A stretch of 36,608 bases of DNA from Bacteroidales bacterium (GTDB taxonomy: Bacteria > Bacteroidota > Bacteroidia > Bacteroidales > PUMT01), in NCBI GenBank assembly GCA_007123885.1, contig SLGC01000162.1, forward strand, positions 1 through 36,608, written 5' to 3'. Made by a program: the position numbers and the translations under genes. Positions 24,079 through 34,852 of this stretch are shown here, piece by piece. How positions within the stretch are numbered: the stretch's first letter is position 1; the number at the start of each line of letters is the position of its first letter. Under the pieces are notes generated by a model. It did not search any database, was not told the origin of the DNA, and was given only the letters and a program-made list of their open reading frames with translations.

Positions 24079-24954
24079 ATGAAAAGAATTGATTACTTAT
24101 CCAGATTTCTATTTCCTGCCCTGATCATGGTTTTGATATTATCTGCCTGTGAAAGGCCGCGGGAAGATAAATTTATTGGTATCCAACTCTGGTCCGTCCG
24201 TGGCGACATGCAGGCAGACCCGGAAGGTACACTCAGAGAGCTGGGCGAGATGGGTTACAGCTATGTTGAAGCTGCCAGTTATGCCAACGGTATGTTTTAC
24301 GGTATGGAACCGGAAACTTTTTCATCCATGGTCCAGGCCAGCGGTATGGAGTTTATCAGTTCCCATGTAAGCCGGGCACTTCCCTCGGAAGAAGAGTATG
24401 ACGAGGCAATGCAATGGTGGGGAACCGCTATAGATGCTCATCAGAGGGCCGGAGCCAACTATCTTGTTGTGCCTTCGTTGCCCAGATCCGCTTTTGAAAG
24501 CAAGGAAGCACTTGGCAGGTGGACTGAATACTTTAATAGAATAGGTGAACTGTGCCGGGAAAGAGGCGCTTATTTCGGATTTCATAACCATGCCATTGAA
24601 TTTACCGAACAGGTCGAGGGACAGGTGGCCTATGATTTCATGCTTGAAAATACCGATCCGGAGCTTGTTTTCTTTCAACTGGACCTGTACTGGATAGATG
24701 ATGCAGGAGCCGATGCAGTAGATTATTTCCATAGATATCCCGGACGATTTCTTATGTACCACGTAAAAGACCATCAGGAAGTAGGTGCCAGTGGAGATAT
24801 GGATTTCAGGCCCGCATTTGAAAATGCCGATCTGGCCGGCATGGAATATATTATTGTTGAAGTTGAGGATTATAATTATGAACCGCTCGAAAGTGTAAGG
24901 ATCAGTCTGGAGTACCTCATGGACGCCGATTACGTTGAGGCAGACTACAGATAG
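24079..24954 (+). CDS. Lipoprotein of the sugar phosphate isomerase/epimerase (TIM barrel) family
   Basis: 291 residues. The N-terminus is a lipoprotein signal with lipobox LSAC (Cys24), so the mature protein is likely anchored facing the periplasm or on the surface. The body is the xylose-isomerase-like TIM barrel (AP endonuclease 2 family): IGIQLWSVRGDM near residue 34, GYSYVEAA, FGFHNHAIEF, QLDLYWIDDAG, MYHVKDH and VEVEDYNYEP, which contain the usual His, Asp and Glu metal-ligand positions. Exported members with this lead-in are common in Bacteroidota and Planctomycetota, and some are linked to keto-sugar or glycoside modification; substrate unknown. It stands alone between long spacers and is followed by a hairpin. 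Confidence 0.87.
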   Translation: MKRIDYLSRFLFPALIMVLILSACERPREDKFIGIQLWSVRGDMQADPEGTLRELGEMGYSYVEAASYANGMFYGMEPETFSSMVQASGMEFISSHVSRALPSEEEYDEAMQWWGTAIDAHQRAGANYLVVPSLPRSAFESKEALGRWTEYFNRIGELCRERGAYFGFHNHAIEFTEQVEGQVAYDFMLENTDPELVFFQLDLYWIDDAGADAVDYFHRYPGRFLMYHVKDHQEVGASGDMDFRPAFENADLAGMEYIIVEVEDYNYEPLESVRISLEYLMDADYVEADYR

Positions 24955-24981: not shown

Positions 24982-25003
24982 AGCCGGTCAGAATGGCCGG
25001 TTT
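24982..25003 (+). terminator. Possible terminator of the lipoprotein gene
   Basis: AGCCGGTC and GGCCGGTT form an 8-pair stem (two G-U) around AGAAT, followed by TTATT and then a run of nine C. The T tract is weak, so this is tentative. Confidence 0.45.
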
Positions 25004-25335
25004 ATTCCCCCCCCCAATTCTTTTTAGCGGTTGACATCCTCCATGCCATTGACCTGCTGATCGATCAATAGGTTACCCGGATATCGGCAAAATAGATACA
25101 GCCCCTGTTATATTGAGGATGAATCATTTACCCGGCAACATCCCGGGAGAAAGAATATGGTTCTGGCCAAAGGAGTGAAATTCCCTGAATAAGGTAAAAA
25201 TCCCGTAAATTTCAGGCTGCTTGATAATAAATGATCAGGATTTTTGTTTTAATTTATATTAACTGCATGGATTTGAAAGATTAATTAACTCATTATTATT
25301 TATATAAGTTGGCAAAGAGACCCGGATCTGTTCAA

Positions 25336-25367
25336 TTTGCAATTGTGGCCTGTTTTTTGTAATTTTG
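25336..25367 (+). promoter_or_regulatory. Bacteroidota-type promoter of the GNAT-M20-alr operon
   Basis: TTTG (25336-25339), exactly 20 nt, then TAATTTTG (25360-25367): both elements match the Bacteroidota primary sigma consensus. The start of transcription would be near 25374, giving a leader of about 105 nt. Confidence 0.72.
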
Positions 25368-25402
25368 GGGTGCAGAAAAAATAAATCAAGGTTCGTATAT
25401 CC

Positions 25403-25422
25403 GCCTGCAATCAAAAGCAGGC
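25403..25422 (+). promoter_or_regulatory. Leader hairpin of the GNAT-M20-alr operon
   Basis: GCCTGC (25403-25408) and GCAGGC (25417-25422) are perfect complements around an 8-nt A-rich loop, in the predicted untranslated leader. It may be structural or regulatory; no known riboswitch is recognised. Confidence 0.4.
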
Positions 25423-25479
25423 TATGACCCATAAACCTTTCCGGATATTCAGGAAACCTGCCAAAACATATTATTATTT

Positions 25480-25929
25480 ATGCTTGATTATAAAATTTTT
25501 GATCCATCAAATCCTCCCAAAGAGGACGAGAGAAAAGAGATTATTAAATTTCTTCATACCCACCTGGACCAGTTCCGAGATACACCTGAAGCCATAGGCA
25601 ATGCGGTAGCATATGCACTTGGGGAATCCTCAAAACCCGGGGGATTTATTCTCGAGGGTAAGGAAAAAGGGGAAACCGTAGGAGTAGTCGTGATCAACAA
25701 GACCGGAATGGAAAGCTATATTCCCGATAATATACTGGTCTATATAGCAGTGGATAAAAAGTTCAGAGGCAAAGGCTATGGACGGGAGCTTATGATCAAG
25801 GCCATCGAGATGGCTGAGGGTGATATTAAGCTGCATGTAGAGCACGATAATCCTGCAAGGTTCCTCTACCAGAAACTGGGCTTTACCAACAAGTATATGG
25901 AAATGCGGCTGTTAAGAGGTAAAAAGTAA
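25480..25929 (+). CDS. GNAT-family N-acetyltransferase
   Basis: 149 residues. The acetyl-CoA binding motif is seen as FRGKGYG (95-101), preceded by beta-4 (ILVYIAVDKKF) and followed by the motif B region EHDNPARFLYQKLGF. The first 50 residues are a helical lead-in (IIKFLHTHLDQFRDTPEAIG) that I do not recognise as a named subfamily. It would transfer an acetyl group to an amine, perhaps an amino acid or polyamine, given that an M20D N-acyl amidohydrolase and two amino-acid racemase-fold enzymes follow on the same strand. First gene after the promoter at 25336-25367. Substrate is unknown. Confidence 0.88.
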   Translation: MLDYKIFDPSNPPKEDERKEIIKFLHTHLDQFRDTPEAIGNAVAYALGESSKPGGFILEGKEKGETVGVVVINKTGMESYIPDNILVYIAVDKKFRGKGYGRELMIKAIEMAEGDIKLHVEHDNPARFLYQKLGFTNKYMEMRLLRGKK

Positions 25930-25967
25930 AAAGCCGTTGAATTAGTTGATATTTAAATTAAATCATT

Positions 25968-26076
25968 GATCCTAATAAAACAGATTAACCAGGTTTATAT
26001 TCATTTATGTTTATCAGGCAATTCATGTTCAGTATTTCAAATGGATGCATCCCCTTGTTTTATTAATTTTTGTGAG
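25968..26076. repeat. Dispersed intergenic repeat, copy A
   Basis: Matches 35095-35201. The core 26007-26076 aligns with 35128-35201 with 12 mismatches in 70 positions and one 4-nt gap; the left flank (ATCCTAATAAAACA) is also shared. The right end lies just before the M20 gene. Confidence 0.65.
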
Positions 26077-26086
26077 ACGCAGTATC

Positions 26087-27274
26087 ATGGGGATTAATAA
26101 AAAGACGGCGGCGGTTCCATATTATGAAATTCTGACCGGTTTACGGAAAGAATTGCACAAGTTTCCCGAGTTATCGGGAAAAGAATATATGACGGCCAGT
26201 AAGATATCAGAAGTTTTACTGAAAACCAAACCAGACCGGCTGATAACCGGTCTTGGCGGTAATGGGGTGGCTGCTATATTCAGGGGTACTAAAAAAGGCC
26301 CGCGGGTAATGCTGAGAGCTGAGCTCGATGCTCTTCCGATTAATGAAACAAACGAAGTTGCATACAGGTCGGTTAATCAGGGAATTTCGCATAAATGCGG
26401 ACACGACGGACATATGTCCGTTGCAGTTGGTGTGGCAATGTGGTTTTCTGAAAACCGACCCGGGAAAGGTGAAATGGTAATATTGTTTCAGCCATCGGAA
26501 GAAAACGGGGAAGGCGCCCTTGCTGTCCTTAGTGATCCGGTTTTTGGATCAATAGAACCGGATTATGTGCTGGCAATGCACAACCTGCCTGGTTATGATC
26601 TTCACGAGATTGTTCTGGGTGATGGTGTTTTTGCAGCAGCATCTGAAGGCATGATCATAAACCTGAAAGGAAAAACAGCACATGCAGGTGAACCGGAAAA
26701 AGGGATCAGTCCCTCACTGGCAGTATCCAGGATCTTGAAGGAATTGCCCCTTTTGCCCGGAAACAGTGATTTGACAACTTTCTCATTGATTACGATCATT
26801 CATGCAGTGATAGGGGAAAGAGCCTTTGGAACAAGTCCTGGTCACGCCGTTATAATGGCCACACTAAGGTCATCAGACAACGAGGAGATGAAAAAATTAA
26901 AGGATCTGGCTGCAGGATTGGTAAAAGAAATTTCTTCCCGGGAAAAGCTTGATTTGAAAATAAGCTGGACAGAGCAATTTCCTGCCACTGAAAACAGTTC
27001 TTTTTTAATATCCCAGGCAGGCAGGGTGGCAGAGCAATCAGGATTCAGGACAAGATATATTGAAAACACATTCCGGTGGTCTGAGGATTTCGGGTGGTTT
27101 ACCCGCAAATATCCCGGTATGTTGTTTGGTATGGGTGCAGGAAAAGAACATCCCGAGCTTCACCATCCTGATTATGATTTTCCCGATGAACTGATCAACT
27201 CAGGGGTAAGATTCATACACGATCTCTCCAGTACATTATTAACAGAGCTTAATGGGCGGCGCATCAGTTATTGA
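26087..27274 (+). CDS. M20D-family amidohydrolase (N-acyl amino acid / hippurate type)
   Basis: 395 residues from the ATG at 26087. An ATG at 26045 is in frame but lies inside a repeat that also occurs in non-coding DNA at 35.1 kb, so the later start is preferred. A cytoplasmic dizinc- or dimanganese-type hydrolase that removes acyl groups from amino acids. Seen: LRKELHKFPELSGKE near the N-terminus; LRAELDALPINE; the metal motif CGHDGHM (104-110); PSEENGEGA with Glu138-Glu139; MHN (His165); a dimerisation domain; and C-terminal HHPDYDFPDE with the last metal His. These are M20D (IAA-amino acid hydrolase-like) hallmarks. It overlaps the next gene, alr, by 23 nt. Confidence 0.92.
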   Translation: MGINKKTAAVPYYEILTGLRKELHKFPELSGKEYMTASKISEVLLKTKPDRLITGLGGNGVAAIFRGTKKGPRVMLRAELDALPINETNEVAYRSVNQGISHKCGHDGHMSVAVGVAMWFSENRPGKGEMVILFQPSEENGEGALAVLSDPVFGSIEPDYVLAMHNLPGYDLHEIVLGDGVFAAASEGMIINLKGKTAHAGEPEKGISPSLAVSRILKELPLLPGNSDLTTFSLITIIHAVIGERAFGTSPGHAVIMATLRSSDNEEMKKLKDLAAGLVKEISSREKLDLKISWTEQFPATENSSFLISQAGRVAEQSGFRTRYIENTFRWSEDFGWFTRKYPGMLFGMGAGKEHPELHHPDYDFPDELINSGVRFIHDLSSTLLTELNGRRISY

Positions 27275-28403
27275 AATAAGTGAAAAGGCAATAGCCGGGA
27301 ATATTAAATTCCTCAGGGATCATTTTGGTGAAAAAGTGTTGATGTCCTCTGTGGTAAAAGCTAATGCCTATGGTCATGGGGCGGCTACTTTCGTTCCCCT
27401 TGCCGAAAAAGCCGGCATCGACCATTTCTCGGTTTTCAGTGCAGGCGAAGCCAGAGAAATAATGAAAATAAAGAAATCCGATACCAGGCTGATGATTATG
27501 GGCTGGATGGATGATGTTGATATCCGGTGGGCTATTGAAAACGAAGTGGAGTTTTTTGTTTTCGATCCTGAACGGCTTAGGACTATCATACCGCTTTCAC
27601 ATGCGCTTGGTATTCCGGCCAGGATCCACATTGAAATGGAAACAGGCATGAACCGTACCGGGATGAATATGAAAGAGCTAAGGCAGGTTGCCGGATGTAT
27701 ACTTAAAAATCCTTCATGTTTTTTACTGAAGGGATTATGTACGCACCTTGCCGGAGCTGAAAGTATAGCTAACCATGTCCGCATCCAGAAGCAGATCGCA
27801 CGTTTTACCAGATTATGCCGATGGTTTTCACAGCAGGGGCTGGAACCTGAATACCGTCATGTTGCCAGTTCTGCTGCTGCAATGACCTATCCCTCTGCAA
27901 GATTTGATATGGTGCGTATAGGCATTCTTCAGTATGGCTATTGGCCCAGCGCCGAGGTACTTATTCATTATATTGGCAGGAAAAAGGAGAAAATTGATCC
28001 GCTGTGCCGGGTAATTAGCTGGAAAAGCAGGGTGATGGCTGTTAAAAAGGTCAAACATGGTGAATTTATCAGTTACGGGACGGTTTACCTTGCCCGGGAG
28101 GATAAAAAAATAGCAATAGTGCCGGTCGGTTATTCCTATGGATACAGCAGATCGCTGAGCAATCAGGGGCGGGTGCTGATCCATGGCGAGCGGGTTGCAG
28201 TTATAGGAATGGTCAATATGAACATGCTGATAGCTGATGTTACCAAAATTCCTGATATATCGGCCGGAGATGAAGTAGTGCTGATAGGCTGTCAGAATGA
28301 TATGACAATCTCGGTAGCTTCATTCAGCGAATTCAGCAACCAGCTAAATTACGAACTACTAACCCGTCTGCCTGAAGGTACACAAAGGCTGGTAGTCGAC
28401 TAA
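27252..28403 (+). CDS. alr: Alanine racemase (stand-alone)
   Basis: 383 residues, fold-type III PLP enzyme that interconverts L- and D-alanine. Seen: PLP lysine in VVKANAYGHG (Lys36), METGMNRTG, the THLAGAE loop, the ASSAAAMTYP segment, FDMVRIGILQYGYWPS, and the catalytic Tyr of the second half-site in VPVGYSYGYSR (Tyr294). The start overlaps the M20 gene by 23 nt, implying translational coupling. Many Bacteroidota make D-Ala with a MurF-Alr fusion protein; this copy is not fused and sits in a catabolic-looking operon, so the true substrate may be another amino acid. Some positions differ from the common consensus (for example NMNML where CMDQ is usual). Confidence 0.88.
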   Translation: MGGASVIEISEKAIAGNIKFLRDHFGEKVLMSSVVKANAYGHGAATFVPLAEKAGIDHFSVFSAGEAREIMKIKKSDTRLMIMGWMDDVDIRWAIENEVEFFVFDPERLRTIIPLSHALGIPARIHIEMETGMNRTGMNMKELRQVAGCILKNPSCFLLKGLCTHLAGAESIANHVRIQKQIARFTRLCRWFSQQGLEPEYRHVASSAAAMTYPSARFDMVRIGILQYGYWPSAEVLIHYIGRKKEKIDPLCRVISWKSRVMAVKKVKHGEFISYGTVYLAREDKKIAIVPVGYSYGYSRSLSNQGRVLIHGERVAVIGMVNMNMLIADVTKIPDISAGDEVVLIGCQNDMTISVASFSEFSNQLNYELLTRLPEGTQRLVVD

Positions 28404-28416
28404 AAGAATTACACTT

Positions 28417-29487
28417 ATGGCTTACATGGAATTTCATAAAGAAAAGCTGAAACATAATTATGATTTTTTAAATAATCTTTTTCAAAGTAATAATATTGCC
28501 TGGGGCATCGTTACAAAATTGTTGTGTGGCAACAAGACATATCTGAAAGAGGTGATCGATCTTGGTGCTAAACAGATTTGTGATTCGAGGACAAGTAATC
28601 TCAGGGTAATCAAGAGTATTGATCCTGAAATAGAAACAGTTTACATCAAGCCCCCGGCAAAAAGAGCGGTCTCTTCGGTGGTAAAGTATGCCGATATCAG
28701 CCTGAATACAGAATTGTATACAATTAAGTTACTTAATGAGGAGGCAGAAAGGCAGGATAAGATACACAGGGTCATAATAATGATCGAGATGGGTGATCTG
28801 CGTGAGGGAGTTCTTGGAGATAATCTGATTGAATTTTACGGTAAGATTTTCAATCTGCCCAATATAGAGGTAATTGGTATAGGAACAAATCTTAATTGCC
28901 TTTATGGCATAATGCCCAGCCAGGACAAGCTTATTCAGCTGGGACTCTATAAGCAGTTGATTGAAGCCAAATTCAGAAGAAAGATCCGTTATGTTTCGGG
29001 TGGTTCATCTGTAACAATCCCCTTGCTGGTTAAAGGAATTTTACCTGCCTCCGTAGATCATTTCCGGGTCGGGGAAAGCCTGTTTTTTGGAAAAGATCTT
29101 TTTACAGGGAAGATGATAAAAGGAATGAAGAACGGGATATTTAAGCTTCATGCAGAAATTATTGAATTGATTGAGAAACCTGTTGTTCCGACAGGAGAAA
29201 TAGGAACAAATGTGGCCGGTGAAATGCTTGAGTTTGATGAAAAGAACCTGGGGAAAACTACCTTTCGTGCTATTCTTGATATCGGACTGCTGGATATAGA
29301 CATGGACAGCCTGGAACCGGTTGACAGGAAGATAAATATTTCAGGGGCAAGTTCAGATATGATTGTCGTAGATCTTGGAACCCGAAAACCAAAATACCGG
29401 GTGGGTGATCTGGTTGAATTCAAACTCAGTTATATGGGAACATTGCACGTTATGAATTCAGCATATATAGATAAAAAAATCATTTAA
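28417..29487 (+). CDS. Alanine/ornithine racemase family PLP enzyme
   Basis: 356 residues, starting 13 nt after alr. It belongs to the family typified by the ornithine racemase of Clostridium sticklandii. Seen: PLP lysine in GIVTKLLCGN (Lys34), DSRTSNLRVIK, IMIEMGDLREGV, GIGTNLNCLYG, VSGGSSVT and VDHFRVGESLFFG, all typical of Orr-like proteins. The C-terminal domain is beta-rich with a likely catalytic residue in GEIGTNVAGEM. No ornithine aminomutase or diaminopentanoate dehydrogenase genes, which accompany Orr in the clostridial pathway, are present here, so ornithine as substrate is not established. Last gene of the operon; a 507-nt spacer follows. Confidence 0.88.
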   Translation: MAYMEFHKEKLKHNYDFLNNLFQSNNIAWGIVTKLLCGNKTYLKEVIDLGAKQICDSRTSNLRVIKSIDPEIETVYIKPPAKRAVSSVVKYADISLNTELYTIKLLNEEAERQDKIHRVIIMIEMGDLREGVLGDNLIEFYGKIFNLPNIEVIGIGTNLNCLYGIMPSQDKLIQLGLYKQLIEAKFRRKIRYVSGGSSVTIPLLVKGILPASVDHFRVGESLFFGKDLFTGKMIKGMKNGIFKLHAEIIELIEKPVVPTGEIGTNVAGEMLEFDEKNLGKTTFRAILDIGLLDIDMDSLEPVDRKINISGASSDMIVVDLGTRKPKYRVGDLVEFKLSYMGTLHVMNSAYIDKKII

Positions 29488-29994
29488 ATATAAGTAGCGG
29501 AAAGTATTTGATAAATAGTTAGGAAACAATAAAATAGTTTCAATATCAGGGTGAAAATATAAAAGCGGAAAAAATAATTAATAATTGCATGAACAATCGG
29601 TCAATAATATTGTTGAAAAACATACTGGAAAAACAGCCGAAGATTTTCAAAATGATCAAGTTAAGATGTCTTTTAAAACATGATCCAATTGTGTTCGGGT
29701 CAACGGGGGCCTTGAATAACAGTAAATTGCTTTAATTATGCTGAAGCTTCAGGTTAAATGCAATATTCTTGATAAAATAAAGTTTAATCCATAACAGTAT
29801 GCATGATAATAAACAAGGTATTCGACCTGCGCGGCAATCCAAAATTCAAAATAATTCATATTCATCAATAATCCTTATTGACCGTTGGTTAAGATCACAT
29901 ATGTTATTGCGGCAGATGCCCGGATGCGATCTGTAAGTCAGGTATAAAATATAAACAACAATTGGAGTATCGCTAATAATAAATATACTAGATA
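29488..29994. other. Intergenic region upstream of rpoD
   Basis: 507 nt, strongly A/T-rich. No exact TTTG-N20-TAnnTTTG promoter for rpoD was found; TAATATTG near 29606 is a near match. A 45-codon frame (29799-29936) has no support. No RNA gene is recognised, although a long leader for rpoD is possible. Confidence 0.5.
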
Positions 29995-30855
29995 ATGAGG
30001 CAGTTAAAAATCACGAAGTCGATCACCAACCGTGATTCGAATTCTATTGAGAAGTATTTGCAGGAAATAGGTAAGGAAGACCTGATAAGTCCGGAAATGG
30101 AAGTGGAACTTGCCCAGAGGATCAAAAAAGGAGATCATGCCGCCCTTGAAAAAATGGTAAAAGCCAATTTAAGGTTTGTTGTTTCTGTGGCCAAACAGTA
30201 CCAGTTTCAGGGATTAAGTCTTCCGGATCTTATTAATGAGGGTAATCTTGGACTTATCAAGGCAGCTACCAAATTTGATGAAACAAAAGGATTTAAGTTC
30301 ATTTCATATGCTGTTTGGTGGATCCGTCAGTCAATATTGCAAGCCATATCAGAACAGGCAAGAGTTGTAAGGCTTCCCCTGAACCAGGTTGGTTCTCTTG
30401 GCAAGATCCATAAGATCAGTTCGAAGTTTGAACAGGAAAATGAACGTGATCCCTCCACCGAAGAACTTGCCGAGGAACTTGATATGAGCAAGGAAAAAGT
30501 TGCCGGCACATTGAAGCTAAACGGCCGTCCCATGTCTTTTGATGCTCCTTTTGCCGATGGTGAGGACAACAGCCTGCTTGATGTAATGGAAAACAAGGAT
30601 TCTCCGGTGGCTGATTCTCAATTGATGACCGATTCGCTTCGCAAGGAAATTTCCCGTACTCTTAGCATACTTTCAGAAAAAGAAAGAAATGTTCTTGAAT
30701 GTTATTTCGGCCTTGGAAGGCAGGAGATGTCGCTTGAAGCGATCGGTGAGGAACTGGGCCTGACCAAGGAGCGTACAAGGCAGATAAAGGAAAAAGCACT
30801 CAAGAGATTAAGGCATAAATCAAAAAACAAGCTTCTCAGAATGTATCTTGGGTAA
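29995..30855 (+). CDS. rpoD: Primary RNA polymerase sigma factor (RpoD, Bacteroidota type)
   Basis: 286 residues. Principal sigma-70 factor that directs RNA polymerase to the TTTG/TAnnTTTG promoters seen in this window. Regions in order: 1.2 ([10 protein letters not shown], about 16-25) ; 2.1-2.4 ([29 protein letters not shown] and [13 protein letters not shown], about 60-120); region 3 ([13 protein letters not shown] onward); region 4.2 ([28 protein letters not shown], here in two parts, about 245-275). The long acidic region 1.1 of proteobacterial RpoD is absent, the normal state in Bacteroidota. It converges with rtcB at a strong hairpin. Confidence 0.96.
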
Positions 30856-32372: not shown

Positions 32373-33641
32373 TCATGTATTCCGGAATGCACTGGGATCA
32401 TTAATGATAGAATATTCCTTCAATACCTTATCGAATTCAAATTGGTGTATACTGCGGTCAATTTTTAACGCGGCATCGAACAAGGATTTATATTTGGTTT
32501 TGTCAAAGCCCGATACCTCTCCAAGAATGTGAATTACATCACTATCAAACTTTTTTAAAAAACCGGCATCATCACTGAAATATCTGCCTTGTTCATCAAC
32601 TGCCCTGAAGTAGCAGCCACATATCAATACAAATAAGATTTTATAATAGGGCAGGTCAAGTTCAAGCCCGGTTTTAATGGCTCCTGCCAAACGATCGTTT
32701 GCCCCAAGCTTTCGGTGTAAATCACAACCTACCCTGAAAATTGTATCTCCCAGTGCTGTGTTCCCAAATCTGTCAAGGAGGTCATCAATATGTTCATCCA
32801 GTTTTGACCGGGAAAATACACCAGGATGTTTTTTCATCAGAATTTCTGATGCCTCCAGCATGGCATTCCTTGTAAAATCGTATATACTTTTAACCCTTAG
32901 AGTCTCCCATATGTAAACAAAATCCCGGTTAAACAAAAAGCCGGAATAAGCAGTTGTAACATGGCCAAGATTATGAATAAAAAGCTTTCTGTCTACCCAT
33001 GCCCGGATATTATCCTTAGGGGCAATATCCGGGATCTCCGGTATTGGATTTCTAAATCCCCTTTTATCAACAATCAGTGTATTGTAAGGTTCGGCAAAAA
33101 TCCTGAGTCTATCCTCATCAAGATCTCTCTGTTTCATAATCGGAACCATTTTACCGATACTTGTTTCAATCAGCCCGACAAATTGATTGATGGGATAATC
33201 GACCGGTAACAGTTTCCCAAGTTCTTTACGGAAAAGATCTGAACCATCCCTTATATTTTCAGCAATAATAATATCCAGTGGGTATTCCCGGTTATTTAAA
33301 TATCTCCTGAGTAACCCTGCTGCCATAAGAGGGAATACAGATTCCAAACCATTAATTCCGACTGATACTGCCATTATTCCCGCAGTGGATATTTCGTTAA
33401 TAACCTTATCCTTTTCACTTAAATGGACTCCTCTGATATTATTTATTCTTAATGAGGTTTCACCAGCTTCTGATTTGATTATTACATCATAATATTTCCT
33501 GATATTCAGTTCATCAATAAGGTTATTATCTATATCGATAAAGACCAACTCATATCCACCTTTGTAAAAAACCGGGCCAATAAATGAACGACCAATTTTC
33601 CCGGCACCAAAAACCAATACTTTATTTATGCTAACCGCCAT
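32373..33641 (-). CDS. Mannitol-1-phosphate 5-dehydrogenase-like (MtlD family)
   Basis: 422 residues. Member of the polyol-specific long-chain dehydrogenases. Seen: N-terminal NAD-binding loop FGAGKIGRSFIG (about 10-21); and the catalytic pattern K-x4-N-x2-H as KLFIHNLGH (about 218-226), as in E. coli MtlD, which oxidises mannitol-1-phosphate to fructose-6-phosphate. Overall length is slightly above that of MtlD (about 380). Its start overlaps the end of the PfkB kinase gene by 16 nt, so the two are co-translated. Since Bacteroidota rarely have a mannitol PTS, the phosphorylated substrate may be supplied by that kinase; this is inference. Related tagaturonate/fructuronate reductases lack the phosphate-type N-terminus seen here. 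Confidence 0.8.
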   Translation of the reverse strand: MAVSINKVLVFGAGKIGRSFIGPVFYKGGYELVFIDIDNNLIDELNIRKYYDVIIKSEAGETSLRINNIRGVHLSEKDKVINEISTAGIMAVSVGINGLESVFPLMAAGLLRRYLNNREYPLDIIIAENIRDGSDLFRKELGKLLPVDYPINQFVGLIETSIGKMVPIMKQRDLDEDRLRIFAEPYNTLIVDKRGFRNPIPEIPDIAPKDNIRAWVDRKLFIHNLGHVTTAYSGFLFNRDFVYIWETLRVKSIYDFTRNAMLEASEILMKKHPGVFSRSKLDEHIDDLLDRFGNTALGDTIFRVGCDLHRKLGANDRLAGAIKTGLELDLPYYKILFVLICGCYFRAVDEQGRYFSDDAGFLKKFDSDVIHILGEVSGFDKTKYKSLFDAALKIDRSIHQFEFDKVLKEYSIINDPSAFRNT

Positions 33642-34852
33642 TTTTTAATACAGTCCTTTTGTTTGAGAAATTCTTCACGAATAAACCTGACCTGTTGAAG
33701 TTTTTCACCCGGATATTTTTCGGGGTAAACCCCTCCAGGATAAAAACAGGCGAAACCACCAGATGCAATACCCCATGTAGCAGCCTCAACAATATCAAAA
33801 TGTCCGGGCTTAAAGTTTTTTAACTGCCATGAGAGGGAAGCAATTACTCCACCGGCAAAATTATCACCACAACCGGTAGTATCTCCATTCATGTCAGGGC
33901 GGGCAAGCAATTTGTCAATTACGTATTCCGATACGGGGGCTGATAATAAATCTGTTTTTTTAAATACTCCACCCCCGGAATAAAAAACAACATCGTTGGT
34001 CCCATCTGTTATGAAGAAAGATGAAACTTTGGAGGTTTTAAAATATTTAGCTGCCGAATGCATATTATCTGTTCCACTGATCTTTTTAGCCTCCTCTGCA
34101 TCCATAATCAAAACATCGATCAGTTCATAATCGTCTATATTCTTTACCAGAGACCATGGTTTTCCGGGATTTCTTTTTTCCGAAGGGAAATCATAAACAG
34201 TGTTAACCACTGTTATACAATTATTTTTTTTCCCTCTTAATAAAAGTTGCGAAAGGTTTGAATGAAGATTGGGAACCAGCGCTGTTCCTCCGAAACAAAC
34301 AATATCGGACTCAAAGAAGCTATTGTCAAGCATTTCAGGGGTAAAACCCGCAGCAGCTCCTATATTGTTCAAAAATGTACGTTCTCCGGCCACCCTCTCA
34401 TAATCAGGGTCAGAGAACACATGAGTAAAAGGTGTTGGCAAACTCGTGAATTTATGGTAATTGTCTGTATTTAAAGAAGTTTTGCCGATTATCCTGAACA
34501 GGTCAGCGCTGATCTGGTCATCCCCCGCAATCCCATAAAACTTTACATGATGGCCGGTTGTTGAAAGCAGTTGTGAGGCATGGATCAGTGAGACCAGTGA
34601 TGGGCCTCCTGCATTAAAGGAAGTATCCGGGTTATTTCCAACAATCTCTTCTAAAATTTCATGATAAGATTTTCCGGAAAAAGCTTCAAGATCTTCTGTA
34701 AATACCAGTTTCCCGGGACTTAGTCCCCCGTCGCCGGGAATTTCTGACAGGTATTTCATGAAATTTTGGCTTTTGTATGAAACCTGCCCGTAAAGGTAAT
34801 CTCCAAGAGCACATCCTGTGCCGGAAATCAGGATTATATCCGAACTGTTCAT
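33626..34852 (-). CDS. PfkB-family carbohydrate kinase (long form)
   Basis: 408 residues, about 80-100 longer than ordinary ribokinase-type kinases. Seen: N-terminal SGTGCALGDYLYG, substrate loop NAGGPSLVSLIHASQLLS (about 79-96), and the ATP/anion-hole signature DTTGCGDNFAGGVIASL with the catalytic Asp (about 326-342). Extra length lies in the N-terminal lid (PGDGGLSPGKLVFTEDLEAF) and the C-terminus. It phosphorylates an unknown sugar, polyol or nucleoside; the tight link with an MtlD-like dehydrogenase suggests a hexitol or ketohexose. First gene of the pair on the minus strand; preceded by a 447-nt repeat-rich spacer without a recognisable promoter. Confidence 0.87.
   Translation of the reverse strand: MNSSDIILISGTGCALGDYLYGQVSYKSQNFMKYLSEIPGDGGLSPGKLVFTEDLEAFSGKSYHEILEEIVGNNPDTSFNAGGPSLVSLIHASQLLSTTGHHVKFYGIAGDDQISADLFRIIGKTSLNTDNYHKFTSLPTPFTHVFSDPDYERVAGERTFLNNIGAAAGFTPEMLDNSFFESDIVCFGGTALVPNLHSNLSQLLLRGKKNNCITVVNTVYDFPSEKRNPGKPWSLVKNIDDYELIDVLIMDAEEAKKISGTDNMHSAAKYFKTSKVSSFFITDGTNDVVFYSGGGVFKKTDLLSAPVSEYVIDKLLARPDMNGDTTGCGDNFAGGVIASLSWQLKNFKPGHFDIVEAATWGIASGGFACFYPGGVYPEKYPGEKLQQVRFIREEFLKQKDCIKKWRLA

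Follow-up and report, generated by a model that had tools for sequence, protein, structure and literature searches.

Several described gene sets share parts of the operon analysed here, which lies on the plus strand of contig SLGC01000162.1 from a Bacteroidales bacterium (36,608 nucleotides; this whole stretch is called the window below) and encodes a GNAT acetyltransferase, an M20D amidohydrolase, an alanine-racemase-like enzyme (ALR) and an ornithine-racemase-like enzyme (ORR), the last two using pyridoxal phosphate (PLP). The ornithine fermentation operon (Ord-OrtAB-OraS-OraE-Or-4-Orr) likewise contains a fold-type III PLP racemase, of the Orr family, whereas the present module is without the aminomutase, the thiolase and Or-4. 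The D-glutamate N-acetyltransferase/N-acetyl-D-glutamate racemase route, whose genes we take to be DgcN/DgcA, shares an acetyltransferase, a racemase and deacylation in the service of a D-amino acid; its racemase takes the N-acetylated amino acid as substrate and is not known to depend on PLP. In contrast, both racemases of the module are PLP enzymes, which require a free alpha-amino group, so that an alpha-acylated intermediate is not a possible substrate, and the acetyltransferase is a GNAT. The accessible part of PMC11747546 names the enzymes of the D-glutamate route (EC 2.3.1.312 and EC 5.1.1.25). The Bacillus subtilis yxe and ytm operons, like the module, pair a GNAT with an M20D deacylase, and YxeP (1ysj) is the closest PDB sequence to the M20D of the window. 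These operons contain a monooxygenase and an ABC transporter but, unlike the module, are not known to contain a racemase; a literature search on their GNAT-M20D pairs found no paper.

Every family in the operon is already known. The conserved combination, which would belong to D-amino-acid metabolism, is one for which a described pathway was not found: no paper on these genes together turned up in the open-licence literature, in keeping with the first-pass annotation, a reading of the sequence without database searches, which had recognised no such pathway. Gene calls and profile scans reproduce its description of four same-strand genes of these families, with the M20D and ALR reading frames overlapping by 23 nt (27252-27274) and ORR following ALR after 13 nt (28404-28416); the spacing between GNAT and M20D is 115 nt. 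A fifth partner, a sodium:solute symporter (SSS), lies outside the window and was absent from that earlier gene set. The five parts may form an amino-acid stereochemistry module for the uptake and interconversion of D- or N-acyl amino acids, a reading to which we give a probability of roughly 40%.

Recurrence and linkage of the gene set

Each part of the module was searched separately in a class sample of 198 Bacteroidia genomes, drawn evenly. Further counts come from the 80 best-ranking relatives of the query among 580 found (the named loci, which are biased towards the module) and from a phylum sample of 198 Bacteroidota genomes, and neighbourhood genes were called by a simple longest-open-reading-frame rule. 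In the class sample, ORR is present in 30 genomes, GNAT in 31, M20D in 22 and ALR in 20, while clustering of the ORR neighbours brought out the symporter as the fifth recurrent partner, present in 19. All genomes with ALR (20/20) and all with the symporter (19/19) are ORR-positive, as are 20 of the 22 with M20D, and GNAT is found in 28 of the 30 ORR-positive genomes. The five parts occur together in 16 genomes from 11 families, and recurrence of the module spans 17 families of Bacteroidia. The gene set is thus conserved and not unique to this genome, a point that the first-pass annotation had left to a check of the four-gene order across Bacteroidota. The exceptions are GNAT without ORR (G046, G095 and G155), M20D without ORR (G095 and G141) and ORR without GNAT (G067, a distant homologue, and G121, where the ORR frame is without its first residues). 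The Fisher p-values for co-occurrence treat genomes as independent.

GNAT lies within 5 kb of ORR and on its strand in 76 of the 80 named loci, and the four misses have less than 1.5 kb of upstream contig. Among the 51 named loci whose flanks extend for 5 kb or more on each side, GNAT occurs in 51, ALR in 25, the symporter in 22 and M20D in 21, and the order M20D-ALR-ORR is seen in 20. Seven of the 20 ALR genomes have ALR and ORR on different contigs, and in six of these seven M20D adjoins ALR; the module therefore contains two sub-pairs, GNAT-ORR and M20D-ALR, which co-occur even when apart. In the window's own genome (G000), the symporter is unlinked to the operon and found on another contig (G000:C211:15123-16538; 64% identical). 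A MarR-like gene lies upstream of the module in 11 of the 80 named loci, and the one member scanned gave matches below cut-off. The phylum sample holds 28 ORR-family matches, 17 of them outside Bacteroidia, where a nearby short stretch encodes GNAT in 15 cases; it is missing from that stretch in G331, the control for ornithine fermentation described below, and in G297, where the contig is cut. On one contig of a metagenome-assembled genome (L077), two copies of ORR face each other; one is accompanied by GNAT alone and the other by ALR, M20D, SSS and GNAT. Flavobacterium frigidarium DSM 17623 (locus L134) and Salibacter halophilus (L115) are examples of carriers in culture.

The two racemases and their partners

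ALR (27252-28403, plus strand, 383 aa) scores 288.3 bits with TIGR00492 (cut-off 168) and exceeds the cut-offs of both PF01168 (167.4 bits) and PF00842. Sixty-two module ALR rows, namely the window, 42 named-locus and 19 class-sample sequences (one pair is more than 98% identical; G172, whose only ALR is partial, was excluded), were aligned with 31 housekeeping Alr rows, made up of the 30 best PF00842 matches and the window genome's own protein. With Alr/DadX, including MurF-Alr, ALR shares the fold, the PLP-binding lysine (Lys36, codon 27357-27359, plus strand, placed by alignment to solved alanine racemases), the catalytic Tyr, Arg136, His166, Arg219 and Met312 (Geobacillus numbering). The catalytic Lys and Tyr, Arg136, His166, Arg219 and Tyr354 are present in 60 to 62 of the 62 module rows and in the window, the Lys being gapped in two; Tyr354, the gate, is Tyr in 60, the window included.

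However, the group of Asp285, Asp313 and Arg363 is lost as a whole in 60 of the 62 module ALRs and kept as a whole in all 31 housekeeping Alr. At the Asp313 position, module ALR has Asn in 61 rows and Ser in one, against Asp in 31/31. The GYAD aspartate and Arg363 each persist in 1/62 module rows as compared with 31/31, Leu137 is replaced by Thr or Ser in 61/62 but is Leu in 31/31, and the position of the carbamylated lysine (Lys129) is Glu in 61/62, where the housekeeping rows have Lys (26), Glu (4) or Asp (1). In the window, the Asp313 position is Asn324 (codon 28221-28223, plus strand), aligned with the near-invariant aspartate that the accessible part of PMC10288493 numbers Asp313 in GsAlr and Asp322 in MtAlr. 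Asp285 of that source is equated here with the GYAD aspartate by alignment, one residue off by direct count. The same portion of the paper describes a salt bridge made by the aspartate pair and the arginine in ordinary Alr (PMC10288493). Judged by these residues, ALR is a distinct, module-specific subfamily in which the predicted small-substrate gate is kept and the site is rebuilt, and the signature offers a simple way to recognise, within a genome, which protein is module ALR and which is cell-wall Alr. Lysine racemases change Tyr354 to Thr or Ala, as do Lyr and Bar (PMC3485190, in the part available), whereas ALR retains the alanine-gate Tyr, which makes lysine and ornithine less likely substrates. 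ALR is also unlikely to supply D-Ala to the cell wall, because the housekeeping Alr of the window genome is a separate MurF-Alr protein (850-aa open frame).

ORR (28417-29487, plus strand, 356 aa) has NF040742 (racem_Orr) as its sole NCBIfam match, at 325.2 bits and thus below the cut-off of 480, which was reached in none of the 198 Bacteroidia. The positive control passes: in G331, a Bacteroidota genome outside Bacteroidia, Orr scores 505.7 bits and stands beside Or-4, OraE, OrtB and Ord, all above their cut-offs, in what is by gene content a complete-looking ornithine fermentation operon (L308:3114-11024). PF16554, the dimerisation family of D-ornithine/D-lysine aminomutase, occurs in 2 of the 198 Bacteroidia and in none of the 30 that carry ORR, among them G000. 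A fully supported branch of a 37-row tree splits the module ORRs from the only two outgroup rows, G331 and G067, both of which are long.

ORR has the marks of a fold-type III PLP racemase. It matches PF01168 (50.4 bits, cut-off 24.1), its AlphaFold model adopts the alanine-racemase fold (predicted local distance difference test, pLDDT, 92.4), and the predicted PLP lysine, Lys34 (codon 28516-28518, plus strand), is invariant in a 27-row alignment from which three partial ORRs (G121, G174 and G086) were excluded. The nearest structures to the model are alanine, lysine and broad-specificity racemases of low identity, such as 4luy (Z 28.1, root mean square deviation, rmsd, 3.0, 330 residues aligned); Lyr, Bar and BsrV are among the top neighbours, with ~14-16% identity to ORR, and a PDB sequence search gave no solved relative. 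The profile comparison of ORR with ALR, made for the second catalytic base of ORR, aligned ORR residues 2-160 only. ORR is, on its sequence, an Orr-like enzyme and not a proven ornithine racemase, because it falls below the Orr cut-off, the aminomutase family is absent from ORR-positive genomes and the G331 control passes. On the same two counts for ORR, and with the gate Tyr kept in ALR, the dibasic substrate that the first-pass annotation had offered as one option finds no support. The names ornithine racemase and alanine racemase are not backed by the present evidence for the two module racemases, and pathway predictions built on them may therefore well be wrong. A Flavobacteriales RacX was considered as a characterised member of the module and rejected, since the available part of its description has it as a PLP-independent Asp/Glu-type racemase; the ornithine racemase mentioned there is a KEGG annotation only (PMC12838360).

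M20D (26045-27274, plus strand, 409 aa as called) carries the usual metal-site motifs and scores best with TIGR01891 (210.4 bits, cut-off 153.75). Its true start probably lies later, for example at the ATG at 26087 (395 aa), because the family median is 383 aa and members align from residue 11 of this shorter form at the earliest. GNAT (25480-25929, plus strand, 149 aa) matches PF00583 (51.2 bits, cut-off 20.7); an NCBIfam scan gave no model over cut-off, RimI (TIGR01575) reaching 29.9 bits against a cut-off of 86.4. The GNAT model (pLDDT 91.5) has the GNAT fold and aligns with RimI 2cnm (Z 17.0, rmsd 1.9, 129 residues), and a structure search for the acceptor returned generic GNATs with many functions. 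As to the symporter, the member at L038 is over the cut-off of PF00474 (179.2 bits) and below that of PutP (TIGR02121; 161.2 bits, cut-off 515.5), and the copy of the window genome was matched by similarity only.

Proposed function and alternatives

In the proposed module, the symporter would use Na+ to import a D-amino acid or an N-acyl or peptidyl amino acid, and M20D would release the amino acid from its amide. ALR would racemise a small, alanine- or serine-sized amino acid and ORR a second, different one, possibly dibasic, whereby D forms could enter L metabolism. GNAT would N-acetylate either the amino acid that ORR takes or the one that it makes, most likely to cap surplus D-amino acid. 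The enzyme families present do offer the acylation, deacylation and racemisation that the first-pass annotation had suggested, while we infer all substrates, the direction and the GNAT acceptor. Five features favour scavenging over synthesis: the presence of an importer, a MarR-like regulator, a housekeeping Alr separate from ALR, M23 peptidases in the modules of other classes and an M15 gene near a distant ORR. The latter case is G067 (L063:8424-11240), in which the distant ORR homologue lies between a DUF1611 gene and a gene of the M15 D-Ala-D-Ala-dipeptidase family. In Bacteroidota of other classes, the M23 gene has ORR on one side and M20D on the other and encodes 198-242 aa, by eye without an obvious signal peptide. 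It is linked in seven loci (L122:11068-11796, L262:2552-3151, L268:2596-3198, L271:841-1485, L279:2668-3264, L124 and L285), three of which were Pfam-scanned and four assigned by eye. At L307:166-3201 (minus strand), a 1011-aa protein appears by eye to join phosphotransferase-like, M23 (close to the module M23) and class III aminotransferase-like parts.

Several points weigh against scavenging by uptake and interconversion. M23 was rejected as a general member of the module, as it is not enriched in ORR-positive Bacteroidia (5/22, ~3 expected, p = 0.22). GNAT and ORR occur alone, without ALR, M20D and SSS, in 6 of the 198 Bacteroidia, and this pair therefore has a role for which import through the symporter and deacylation are both dispensable. 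L-amino acids are the usual products of M20D enzymes, which leaves the action of ALR after M20D without an explanation, and the co-occurrence p-values ignore phylogeny. Dissolved organic matter, of which Bacteroidota are major degraders, contains a large and poorly used share of D-amino acids; a conserved module that combines two dedicated racemases with a transporter of its own would, if true, give a testable route for D-amino-acid handling in Bacteroidota. Somewhat doubtful is the more far-reaching version, a pathway new for Bacteroidota and elsewhere undescribed: D-amino acids, or N-acyl derivatives of them, would be imported by the SSS protein and inverted by an acyltransferase, a deacylase paired with it and two racemases with new specificities. 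ALR would then found a racemase subfamily that has lost the function of an alanine racemase or has a natural insensitivity to D-cycloserine.

Synthesis in place of scavenging, with ORR making a D-amino acid that GNAT traps as an N-acetyl-D-amino acid (a solute, signal or excreted effector) and M20D, ALR and SSS recovering it later, is rather unlikely. GNAT-ORR is the most widespread core and, as noted, can stand alone, which would suit this role. So would the G067 locus: DUF1611 proteins presumably include a D-glutamate N-acetyltransferase, and two unrelated acyltransferase families would each be paired with an ORR-like racemase. However, this is a single genome, no exporter or biosynthetic partner is recurrent in the module flanks, and the conserved transporter belongs to an import family. 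As the G067 homologue adjoins DUF1611 instead of GNAT, the racemase-acyltransferase pairing may have arisen twice, an origin that would fit capping and synthesis alike. Chemistry at a side chain, in which GNAT places an acetyl on the omega nitrogen of a diamino acid, ORR acts on the free alpha-amino group and M20D removes the acetyl, is compatible with PLP chemistry and with Orr as the nearest family to ORR, and M20D reaches 176.7 bits with DoeB2, an N-acetyl-diaminobutanoate deacetylase (below the cut-off of 550). It seems improbable all the same, given that the score of M20D with CpsA is similar (152 bits) and its highest is that with the generic TIGR01891, and that the M20D enzymes characterised to date cleave alpha-amides.

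The Asn of 61/62 module ALRs also bears on whether the cell protects itself from D-cycloserine or another D-Ala analogue of this kind, with a drug-insensitive ALR and a GNAT that inactivates the drug, since the equivalent D322N makes Alr of M. tuberculosis resistant in the accessible text of PMC10288493. But this would give no role to ORR, M20D or SSS, the Asn accompanies loss of the whole Asp-Asp-Arg group and looks like a change in specificity, and the housekeeping MurF-Alr keeps the Asp (31/31), all of which makes protection very unlikely. ORR can hardly be a genuine ornithine racemase that supplies D-ornithine 4,5-aminomutase with substrate: although NF040742 is its only NCBIfam match, fermentation of ornithine was rejected in view of the missed cut-off, the absence of the aminomutase from ORR-positive genomes and the different set of genes, Or-4, OraE, OrtB and Ord, that flanks Orr in the G331 control. 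That unrelated enzymes became adjacent by chance is next to incredible. The genes are small and from common families, and the GNAT-M20D gap is 115 nt, but recurrence in 17 Bacteroidia families and in other classes contradicts it, and the parts co-occur when unlinked.

Promoter and surroundings of the operon

The near-perfect promoter that the first-pass annotation had placed ahead of the operon proves an exact fit to TTTG-N19-21-TAnnTTTG, which we take to be the Bacteroidota consensus: TTTG (25336-25339) is followed after 20 nt by TAATTTTG (25360-25367), without mismatch and on the plus strand. This copy (25336-25367), found by pattern match, sits 112 nt upstream of the GNAT start. The window holds three copies of the pattern on both strands, as compared with 0.57 expected from a Markov-chain control, and a scan of the window for E. 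coli-type promoters did not have 25336-25367 among its matches. Between the operon and the preceding gene, a CCGG-rich inverted repeat followed by TTTATT (~24982-25007) is seen by eye and is not among the matches of a terminator scan of the window; a run of nine C (25007-25015) stands directly past this repeat, between a TIM-barrel gene (24079-24954) and the operon.

Downstream, about 500 nt without a called gene (29488-29994) separate ORR from a sigma-70 factor gene (29995-30855). Farther on, 32373-34852 of the minus strand holds overlapping genes for a mannitol-1-phosphate-dehydrogenase-like protein and a PfkB-like kinase, neither of which reaches an NCBIfam cut-off. Elsewhere in the window's genome, contig C376 (L003:26-2541) carries a second likely D-amino-acid operon, with a 371-aa PLP protein (PF01168) resembling D-threonine aldolase/D-serine dehydratase, next to what by eye are a GntP-like permease and a RidA-like protein.

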